Below, one piece after another: positions 2,543 through 47,316 of a stretch of DNA of 64,000 bases. The stretch lies in the NCBI GenBank assembly GCA_963281255.1, contig OY725494.1, positions 1,501,934 through 1,565,933 of the forward strand, written 5' to 3'. Source of the DNA: Aphrocallistes beatrix. Taxonomy: Eukaryota; Porifera; Hexactinellida; Sceptrulophora; Aphrocallistidae. The position numbers and the translations under genes are program-made. The stretch's first letter is position 1; each line of letters opens with the position of its first letter. The notes beneath the pieces are model-generated. The model was given only the letters and a program-made list of their open reading frames with translations. It did no database searches and was not told where the DNA came from.

Positions 2543-3201
2543 CAAGCGCGCTTCGCTTGCTTGCGCTGCGCGGCTGGCGGACACTTTGTGTCTGCCGGAG
2601 GCTCCCTTCGGGCGCCTGGGGTCACATTGGTTAATTATAAGGGATATAGTATCTCTAAATATGTCTGACCTACTGATAATCGATATCACTCGAAAAATCA
2701 CCAAATTTGTCAATTTTCAAAATTTTGATACGTGATGACGTCATAATAAAGTGATGAGCCATCATTTTTTGATGATAGTTGCATCATATGTGAGAGATGT
2801 TAGTATACAGATTCTATTAAAATTACAGCCTTCTATCTCCTATAATGGCTGAGTTATGCCCGAATAACTGTGTTGCTTAACTTTTCAAAATGTGACAATG
2901 ACGTCATAATTCCATGATGAGTCGACATTTTCGTCTGAGCTCAGAACTTACTCGACCCATAGCCAAAAAACTCTCACATGCCAAAAATCAGCTTTCTACG
3001 TCTGGCAGTTTCTTCAATCAATTCGTTACAGAGATATATATATACATGTTGCAGTGCAAACCCGAGATTGGTGTGAACGCGTTCACACTGGTGTACACGC
3101 GTGTACACCAGTGTGAACGCGTTCACACCAATCTCGGGTTTGCACTGCAACATACACACAAAACAAACAAACAAACAATAATCGAGTTTTAATAGTAAGG
3201 A
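2543..3201 (-). mobile_element. Helitron-like copy carrying a 108-bp palindrome
   Basis: The 3' end (CAAGCGCGCTTCGC) is at 2543 and the 5' end (complement of TCCTTACTATTAAAACTCGA) at 3201. It sits in the (TA) tract of the copy to its left. Between the body and the 5' terminus, in the place other copies hold (TA)n, lies the perfect palindrome at 3046-3153. The apparent 92-aa and 66-aa open frames here are shadows of repeat sequence. Confidence 0.75.
3046..3153. repeat. perfect 108-bp palindrome
   Basis: Bases 3046-3099 are the exact reverse complement of 3100-3153, with no spacer and no mismatch. Within each arm is a smaller palindrome GTGTGAACGCGTTCACAC, and the centre is GTGTACACGCGTGTACAC. 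The outer parts read ATGTTGCAGTGCAAACCCGA and its complement. It lies in TA-rich sequence just inside a Helitron-like 5' end. No terminal motif of a known transposon was recognised. Confidence 0.95.
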
Positions 3202-12323: not shown

Positions 12324-13200
12324 TCATGAGAGAAAGTGGGGCAGGATAGGTATGCTCGATCGTAGGACAGGAACTGCTGTAGTCTCGGTAGTTTGAGTAG
12401 AGAATTCGATGATCTCGCCATCCATCTTTAGAGCGTTCTTCAAATCGTCCTCGGTGTTGAGCGAGTCTATCAACTCCTGAGGTTGCATCAAATCTACTGA
12501 GAAATCAGGGTACGAACCGTGTGTTCTTCCACTCAATGAGCAGTGCATGTTATTAATAAATTCACTTCGGCTATCTGTCTGGAAGATTGTAGGTGCTCCA
12601 TGTTCACAGAATATAGAGATCAGGTGTTCACACACCCCCACAGCTGATTTCGTTTTAAGCGCTCTCAACACAATAAACTTGCTAAAGCAGTCCTGGTAAT
12701 TGAGGATGTATTTGTACCCGTTATTCTCTTGCATTCGTGAATCTATCAGGTCAGACTGTGTACGCTGGTCAACCGTTGGAGGAATGGTTGGCTTGTGGGC
12801 AATCGTTTTCGTGGTCACCTTCTCCTTCTTCTCCTGGCATATACGGCAGAGCCTTAAAAATAATTCAAGATCGAGCGTAGTAATGTGGAGTTTATGCTTC
12901 TCCAAATAGGCCCACATTCTAAACCTCTCTGCATGACAGATCATGTCGTGTGCTACGCAGAGGGACTCATAAATATCTTCCTTGGCAACTACTAATGCGT
13001 GCTCTCTCTCTTCCTCGAAACTCCCCACCCTTCGTATGCTGCTGCACAAAATCACCAAACCGATAGACGCCGTACTTCTCAGCTGCCCGGAGGTCGGTGC
13101 CTTTGCCAAATCCGCAGAAGAATTAATAAACAAAATAATCATTTCTTCAATATCTCCCCGGGTTGAAGGCTGCTTGGATTTGGGGAGTTGTTCTAACTGC
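12324..13200 (-). pseudogene. integrase (H2C2 zinc finger plus rve core), catalytic Glu region deleted
   Basis: A 272-codon open frame. It has an H-x-H/C-x2-C finger: 'AHDMICHAERF' about residues 65-75 and 'LCRICQEKK' about 95-105. The rve core then has 'SDLIDSRM' (first Asp), 'YKYILNYQDCFSKF' and 'APTIFQTDSRSEF' (second Asp). After 'INNMHCSL' the protein jumps to 'SVDLMQPQELIDSLNTEDD', so the stretch with the third catalytic residue is missing, although that tail matches the plus-strand arm at 11270. The domain style resembles integrases of KRABD2-like or Ginger/gypsy origin. Open but internally deleted; probably not active. No protease or reverse transcriptase is seen nearby. Confidence 0.7.
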
Positions 13201-13855: not shown

Positions 13856-15204
13856 CAGGGTGTCTCAAAATTATTGCGGTGTTGTATTAGATCAAATATG
13901 ATGGAATAAGAACAGTGTAATTGGATACAGCTTCAATTTACTATTGCGAATTTTATAAGCCAACCTTGGTTAATGAATATTTTGAATTATTCCATAGAAA
14001 GTTGTAGTTATTTTTACAATTTTTAGTTTAGCTTAGAATATTGGCGAATTATTAGCAGATGAGTGTGCGATTGGACAAAGTTGAAGTCCGTAGCAGGGCT
14101 ATTGGGATGCTGCTTAGTGGAAAAACACAAAAAAACGTTGCTCTCTCTCTTGGGAAAGATGTTTCAACCATACAAAGATGGTGGTACAAACATAAAGCAC
14201 ATAAGAGCCTACAACATAGGAGGGGTGCTGGGCGTCCGAAAAAGTTATCCAGAGTCTCCAAAATTGTTATCGCGAAATCATTGGGTAAAAGACACAAGTC
14301 TACAAGATCTATGGCTAAGAAACTTACAAACATGGGAAATGCTGTTTCAAAAGACACGGTACACCGGTATTTGACCAAGGATTTAAAAGTTCACCCTTAT
14401 AAAAGACCAAAAACCCCCCAAATTAACAGAATTTCATAAGAAAAACAGGCTAACCTTCTGCATGGATAAGGTGAATTGGACAGTTGACGATTGGAAACGC
14501 ATACTCTGGTCAGACGAGTCTCCCTATGAGTTATTTCACCCATCGAATGCACAGAACGATCGAATATGGGCAAAAGACAATGCACAAGTAACTCCCCGCC
14601 AAACTGTTAAATTTCACGCAAAAGTGATGGTTTGGGGCATGGTGAGCTATCAAGCGCTTTCTACACTCCATATATTGCCTCAAAAACAGACAATAAATGC
14701 GAAATATTATGTAGACGAGATTCTAGAAGGGCTATGTATTCATGCGTTGCGTAGAACAGATGAAATCGGAGGGATATTAGAAAGGAAAATGATGCAAGAC
14801 ATGTCCAAGGCAATTTTTATGCAGGATGGAGCTCCGGCTCACACAGCTAGAAGGACTCAAGATTGGTGCAGACAGAACTTACCTGGGTTCTGGGAGAAAC
14901 AGAAGTGGCCAGGCAACTCTCCGGATCTCAATCCAATTGAGAATATTTGGTCAATCGTTCAGGATAAGATTGACAGGATGAAGCCTGCTGTCAACGTTGA
15001 TGGTTTGGAAAAAATGTTAGAAAATGCTTGGGCATCAATCGACCCTGATATTTTAGAAATATTGTATTTAGGGATGCCAATGCGCATTCAGAAATGTATA
15101 GAATTGTCAGGGGATTATATTGGTAAATAGAACGTTATTCTAAGTGTATTAATTCTAAAGTTATTGAGTATTTCACAACCCCGCAATAATTTTGAGACAC
15201 CCTG
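13856..15204 (+). mobile_element. Tc1-like transposon, 1349 bp, DD37E type
   Basis: The TIRs share an exact 24-bp start beginning CAGGGTGTCTCAAAATTATT, followed by GCGG at both ends. TA is on each side (13854-13855, 15205-15206). The length is typical of Tc1/mariner. The interior is almost filled by one transposase gene with a single apparent frameshift. It is inserted in a Helitron-like element, so it is younger than that copy. Confidence 0.9.
14059..15130 (+). pseudogene. Tc1-like DD37E transposase, one frameshift
   Basis: The first open part (14059-14439) holds paired helix-turn-helix motifs: 'AIGMLLSGKTQKNVALSLG', 'DVSTIQRWWYKH', the GRPR-like 'GAGRPKKLSRVSKIVIA', then 'AVSKDTVHRYL'. The second part (14462-15130, with its frame open further upstream to about 14415) holds the catalytic core: 'RILWSDESPYELF' (first Asp), 'KVMVWGMVSYQA', 'FMQDGAPAHTARRT' (second Asp) and 'WPGNSPDLNPIENIW' (Glu). 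There are 37 residues between second Asp and Glu, hence DD37E. The frame changes at the run AAAAACCCCCCAAA (14408-14421), and one base would restore it. It is otherwise about 345 codons with no internal stop. Related decayed copies are at 19068-19735 and 51543-53800. Confidence 0.85.
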
Positions 15205-46443: not shown

Positions 46444-47316
46444 TTGATAGGGAAAATACAATTACTCATGGAAGGAAAGAAACACTCTCCGAAGGAAAAC
46501 AGTTCGATTGTGTGCGTGTCTATAGCCACCGTTTACAACCTGATCTTTCGAATGATGTCAAGAACTTCTCTTGTTCACAAGAATGGCGTAGGTAGACCAG
46601 GTAGACTCATTTTCAAAATCAATAAATATGTTGCTAGGACCGTCAACCTCAATCCCTCGATTTCAATTCGTAATCATACAGCTAGCTGTTCGGTTGAAGT
46701 AGGACGAGATAACATGAACCACTGCTTGAGAAAACTTAAATATTCCAAGCCTTATCCAACACGTGATCCTTTATTATCTGAAAAAGTCGACTCTATAGGA
46801 TCCAGTGGGTAAAGGAATCACCAATAACCAATGGCATATCCAGATGTGGGTCAAAATGGTGGAAACTCAGTGGGAACTCAGTCCACAGTAAAACACACCC
46901 AGAAGATTAATATATGGGCTGCCTTCTCCTCAATGGGGACTTTCCCGTTGTGCATTTTCTCGAAGATGCTGAATGCGGAATTGTTTATAAAAATAATAGA
47001 GGTTCATTTGCTCGCGGAAGCCCATGTCTTATACCAGGATGCTTGGTTCCTAGTTCAAGACAACGATCCCAAGCATACAGCAGAGTTAACGAAGGCTTGG
47101 ATGGTGGAAAATATGCCGAATAAAAAGATAGATTGGCCTAGCCAGAGTCCAGACATCAACCCCATCGAGAATTTGTTTGCTTGGGTTAAACTAAATCTAA
47201 TAAAAAGGCGTCAAAAGAATATTACAAAGCTGAAAGAGGAACTAACTGCCTTGTGGGAAAATATCAATAGTGATTTTCTAGAAAAATATTGGCTTTCGAT
47301 GCCAAGGAGATGCTAA
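46444..47316 (+). pseudogene. Tc1-like transposase, DD35E spacing, first-Asp segment lost
   Basis: The first part (46444-46812) has a DNA-binding domain: 'SPKENSSIVCVSIATVYNL', the GRP linker 'NGVGRPGRLIFKINKYVART', then 'NMNHCLRKLKYSKPYPTRD'. The second part (46831-47316) starts in 'TVKHTQKINIWAAFSSMG', then 'LVQDNDPKHTAELTKAWMV' (second Asp) and 'WPSQSPDINPIENLFAWVK' (Glu). Thirty-five residues lie between them. The region that should hold the first Asp (the FSDES-like box) is missing between the parts. The C-terminus 'LSMPRRC' is normal for the family. No TIRs were identified. Confidence 0.75.

Follow-up and report, generated by a model that had tools for sequence, protein, structure and literature searches.

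A perfect palindrome of 108 bp without any spacer between its arms lies near one end of the window, the 64-kb stretch of Aphrocallistes beatrix DNA that was analysed here, and it raises the question of what kind of element it is and how such a symmetric structure was formed. The original prediction described two exactly complementary arms built from smaller palindromes, and we found both statements to be correct: the arms 3046-3099 and 3100-3153, of 54 nt each, are 100% complementary with 0 nt between them, GTGTGAACGCGTTCACAC is present at 3071-3088 and 3111-3128, and the centre is GTGTACACGCGTGTACAC at 3091-3108. The palindrome itself thus stands at 108 bp, but its outermost A/T pair belongs to a target-site duplication, so that the element is reduced to 3047-3152. 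We propose that it is probably a minimal non-autonomous transposon, most likely of the Ginger2 type, which would have been produced by the fusion of two terminal repeats at a palindromic module. The features of the locus are the following.

2733..3046, unstranded: host repeat, left part, ending in the (TA)n slot; the start at 2733 is provisional
3043..3046, unstranded: target-site duplication TACA, left copy
3047..3152 (106 bp), unstranded: probable palindromic non-autonomous transposon, TGTTG...CAACA, with 53-bp arms and no spacer
3071..3088, plus strand: 18-bp palindromic module GTGTGAACGCGTTCACAC, left arm
3089..3110, unstranded: 22-bp self-complementary module TGGTGTACACGCGTGTACACCA, presumed fusion point, equal to the longest palindrome found in the terminal repeat of the likely parent
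3111..3128, plus strand: 18-bp palindromic module GTGTGAACGCGTTCACAC, right arm
3153..3156, unstranded: target-site duplication TACA, right copy
3157..3201, unstranded: host repeat, right part, ending in TAATCGAGTTTTAATAGTAAGGA

No palindrome of the 64-kb window is longer than 3046-3153, and the runners-up are TA runs of at most 60 bp. When the window was simulated 30 times with a first-order Markov model, no palindrome exceeded 22 bp, which rules out a chance origin; the idea of an isolated oddity is likewise ruled out, by the relatives found elsewhere in the genome. Folded as a single strand, the 106-bp element forms one hairpin of -69.9 kcal/mol (z -20). Palindromes of this size had been called rare, which is too strong on size alone: the available part of a survey of the human genome gives about 180,000 spacerless near-perfect palindromes >40 bp and 718 >200 bp, counts that tolerate up to four mismatches (PMC7999016). 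It had also been suggested that the palindrome is maintained, but selective maintenance is not needed to account for it.

As had been noticed from the sequence, the element is lodged in an abundant repeat, at its (TA)n slot. Positions 2733-3044 align at 93.6% to the flank of another family member (L024), and 2947-3046 align to many copies. When the genome was searched with the two flanks joined, at least 46 matches were obtained with the best 40 of 2895 candidates scored, and at least 41 of them run across the join. The recommended look for an empty site in other copies gave a clear answer, since in all ten copies inspected (L054-L063) the (TA)n slot is uninterrupted, the element being absent. 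The length of the slot differs among these sister copies, so the duplicated TACA cannot be read off them once at a fixed place. L024 and L007, two other family members, occupy the slot in copies of the host repeat or of a relative of it, which adjoins L007 on one side only. Another palindrome (L040) is also located within a repeat, whose sister copies are empty in 4 of 4 inspected (best 40 of 60 candidates scored in the flank search); ACTC occurs once in these four empty copies and on both sides of the element at L040.

We then searched the whole genome (100.5 Mb, 28 contigs). The complete 106-bp sequence was observed at one locus only, that of the window, among the matches listed, together with many partial matches, these counts being lower bounds. 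A 24-base end pattern, allowed to differ at two bases at most, gave 74 genome matches (38 forward, 36 reverse), whereas its reversed control gave 0. By pairing these ends we obtained elements of 66, 106, 142, 162, 452, 576-588, 639-876, about 1390-1480 and 4259-4394 bp, with a few pairings running across nested copies. Identity to a 587-bp copy (L005) is 96-100% in its seven longest matches (itself included), the ends of this copy agree without difference over 145 bases, and two 4.26-kb copies (L033 and L034) are identical across 4261 bp. The description of the palindrome as very recent is therefore borne out for the family, by the matches to the 587-bp copy and by the two identical 4.26-kb relatives. 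With respect to the features of MITEs, the window element is short and non-coding and has inverted ends in common with longer relatives; in copy number, the 106-bp form, with one full-length match among those listed, stands beside a 66-bp sister form present at nine loci.

These nine 66-bp palindromes were detected with a core pattern and up to three mismatches, a search that also returned ten further three-mismatch loci, which are ordinary terminal repeats. Six of the nine are perfect, L041 and L030 are one base off the perfect form and L042 is two bases off. Seven are bordered by an exact duplication; that of L041 is off by one base, and L030 is composite and has no duplication. We found no flank similarity between the window and the eight loci compared with it (L030 left out), and among all 13 loci compared only the window, L024 and L007 have similar flanks. 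Private changes are present in three of the nine 66-mers, and relationships are not readable from these.

Target sites were examined at 36 distinct loci, which correspond to 39 input sequences, three of them overlapping others. An exact 4-bp duplication is present at 23 loci and one that agrees in 3 of 4 bases at L041; the other 12 have no matching duplication or are without an end, which counts against the transposon explanation. L031 and L032 were omitted from this count because they lie inside L034 and L033. At the 24 loci with a duplication, R is found at -1 in 23 and Y at +1 in 24, and the duplication itself is frequently TANA, giving the consensus R-TANA-Y. RTNNAY fits 18 of these 24 loci as compared with 2.7% of window positions, and it fits five of the nine palindromic elements considered (window and L035-L042; L030 left out). 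The presence of the window element in a (TA)n slot is thus due to the RTATAY-like target preference of the family.

The terminal repeats of longer copies indicate where the fusion may have occurred. The 4259-bp element at L034, with its duplication TGAA, interrupts a terminal repeat. Once joined, the two pieces of this repeat match the window element over its initial 64 bases and diverge thereafter. The 64 matching bases consist of the 53 of the arm plus 11, that is half of the 22-bp palindrome TGGTGTACACGCGTGTACACCA. Similarly, the left repeat of L033 agrees with the 66-mer over its first 44 bases (33 + 11, with the module TGGTGTACACGCGTGTACACCA again) and the L005 repeat over its first 42; the module shows a single difference in the inner right repeat of L033. 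No other position has as long a self-palindrome (22 bp) as the observed centre, out of 145 examined in each of the repeats of L033 and L034 and 110 in that of L005; this figure is to be taken as descriptive, since the coincidence of centre and module was recognised only afterwards. The runner-up self-palindrome (18 bp) was not used, though it is nearer the end in the window type. The likely parent of the window type is represented by the one interrupted terminal repeat at L034, and the 7.3 kb right of the nested element did not reveal a second end belonging to it.

Such a parent would have had long terminal inverted repeats holding short palindromic modules. A palindromic module has an identical sequence on either strand, and for this reason the copy in the left terminal repeat and the one in the right form a direct repeat as much as an inverted one. 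Annealing or deletion between module copies, for example during post-excision gap repair or replication slippage, could then remove the interior wholly and leave end-module-end, a perfect palindrome without spacer. The fused product would retain both ends required by the transposase, and one such product would now occupy an older repeat, within its (TA)n slot and flanked by a 4-bp duplication. As to what happens after fusion, we lean slightly to the view that the 66- and 106-bp palindromes are mobile units and that the point of fusion, and with it their size, is determined by the longest module of the terminal repeat.

It is also possible, if unlikely, that each palindrome was formed where it now stands. 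A full-length element would have been inserted, and repair, which in this scenario might be triggered by excision or by replication trouble at the site, would have annealed both modules and kept the original duplication, so that the palindromes would be separate and immobile scars. Perfect arms, kept duplications and the central module are accounted for equally well, and since the terminal repeat has no longer module, convergent collapse is expected. We observed no movement of a palindrome, and every one of them could be an in-place collapse. The target sites are of little help in this respect: T..A is present in 5/9 palindromes and 13/15 longer copies, a difference that is not significant (Fisher p 0.15), so that jumping and collapse are not separated by them. 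In addition, the available part of a study of Galileo ascribes its defective copies to abortive gap repair and template switching (PMC4168063). Nevertheless, collapse would have to take place at the same exact point at eight or nine loci, the perfect palindromes among the paired ends are only of 66 or 106 bp, and short derivatives with other junctions exist (L022, L016 and L024).

If fused palindromes are themselves mobile, as we prefer to think, the transposase must pair ends 66 bp apart, for which two copies, sharp bending or an extruded cruciform may be needed. How miniature elements originate from full transposons is an old question, and here likely parental repeats, products and fusion point are visible together. 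The rule of fusion at the longest palindromic module is open to testing across genomes, and perfect palindromes may arise in genomes without selection on symmetry.

A candidate transposase is present in the 4.26-kb copies (L033 and L034). Their 472-aa open frame has Pfam matches to Znf_SCAND3 and to rve, the latter with 33.7 bits (cut-off 32.6). The best 60 of 110 PDB hits include integrases of HIV and of foamy virus, with an E value of 5.7e-11 for the foamy-virus enzyme. The putative catalytic residues, identified by eye, are D91, D159 and E197, with 67 and 37 residues between them. A putative zinc-finger His pair and Cys pair, also seen by eye, are in different frames, and a stop is located ahead of the His pair in its own frame; the 4.26-kb copies may therefore be defective or spliced. 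The Pfam listing for the transposase frame contains no H2C2 family. As the transposase looks interrupted in these copies, they are only a possible source of it. A 68% identical relative with a 537-aa open frame lies 1.9 kb right of the 4259-bp element at L034. A reading by eye for the GPY/F and YPYY motifs, which are absent from Ginger2, showed a GPRN string in the frame of this relative and in a 148-aa frame. A genome search with the transposase yielded at least 91 matches when the best 90 of 782 candidates were scored.

According to the available part of the description by Bao and colleagues, Ginger2 elements have TGTNR ends, 4-bp duplications in metazoan families, the target RTATAY and terminal repeats of 50-180 bp (PMC2836005). 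The TGTTG of the window element agrees with TGTNR, the consensus R-TANA-Y with a 4-bp AT-rich RTATAY target, and the longer relatives encode a transposase of the Gypsy-integrase-like DDE type, as judged from Pfam rve and the retroviral integrases. Ginger2/TDD and this family would thus have in common TGTNR ends, 4-bp duplications, an AT-rich R..Y target and an integrase-type transposase, as well as terminal repeats of 50-180 bp (same part of PMC2836005). In the same source the non-autonomous Ginger2-1N1_NV has 252 bp, whereas the smallest forms here, of 66 and 106 bp, are fully symmetric and have no interior. That the family belongs instead to another integrase-like superfamily, namely Ginger1, IS481EU or IS3EU/GingerRoot, seems improbable to us. 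TGTNR ends and 4-bp duplications are also given for Ginger1 there, but its duplications are CCGG or CCGT/ACGG, in contrast to the AT-rich R-TANA-Y that we observed. The available text on IS481EU reports ends of TNT or TGT and, in part, 4-bp duplications (PMC10045372); these elements are from parabasalids and have 4-, 15- and 25-bp duplications, again to be compared with R-TANA-Y. An assembly artefact (such as a spacer collapsed by the assembler or an inverted join made in error), which had been raised for this palindrome and is conceivable as it is known here from assembled sequence alone, is scarcely credible in view of the 4-bp duplication, the host repeat continuous on both sides, the empty sister sites and the nine 66-bp palindromic relatives assembled elsewhere.

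That a near-palindromic element is able to spread is shown by MADE1, an 80-bp relative of Hsmar1 (PMC1784062, as far as its available part goes). Like the elements described here, MADE1 is a nearly perfect palindrome of two terminal repeats, 37 bp each with 6 bp between; unlike them, it is mariner-like and retains this 6-bp interior, and the available part of that paper does not mention a central palindromic module. The 66-bp form is smaller still, which brings back the mechanical question of end pairing. Galileo, of the P superfamily, resembles this family in its variable terminal repeats, its many defective copies and the gap repair invoked for them; it differs by 7- or 8-bp duplications and a different transposase, and fused perfect palindromes are not mentioned in the available part of PMC4168063. 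In the titles and starts of abstracts listed, mostly outside subscription journals, we found no earlier description of such elements, which does not imply their absence from print.

Some other observations were made in the genome and in the window. At L033 (993-5386), L011 and L013 the terminal repeats of the family occur in tandem or nested arrangement, and L033 has an outer right end with the duplication TTTA. The end motif TCCTTACTATTAAAACTCGATTA of the abundant repeat, or its complement, was found with up to four mismatches at eleven window sites (1786, 3179, 3603, 5697, 8232, 16046, 16267, 31722, 32704, 56783 and 61353). A T directly follows the repeat end AAGGA in 9 of 10 genomic copies read, which we assume to be compatible with a Helitron-like TC end; the end motif is in this respect compatible with the Helitron-like host of the original prediction. 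The window also contains a relic of an integrase-type transposase at 12324-13142 (minus strand), which scores 32.1 bits with Pfam rve, just under the cut-off of 32.6, and has 40% identity to the L033 frame over 117 residues. Finally, two window frames on the plus strand, 14462-15130 and 46831-47316, match Pfam DDE_3, and we take them to be Tc1/mariner-like.
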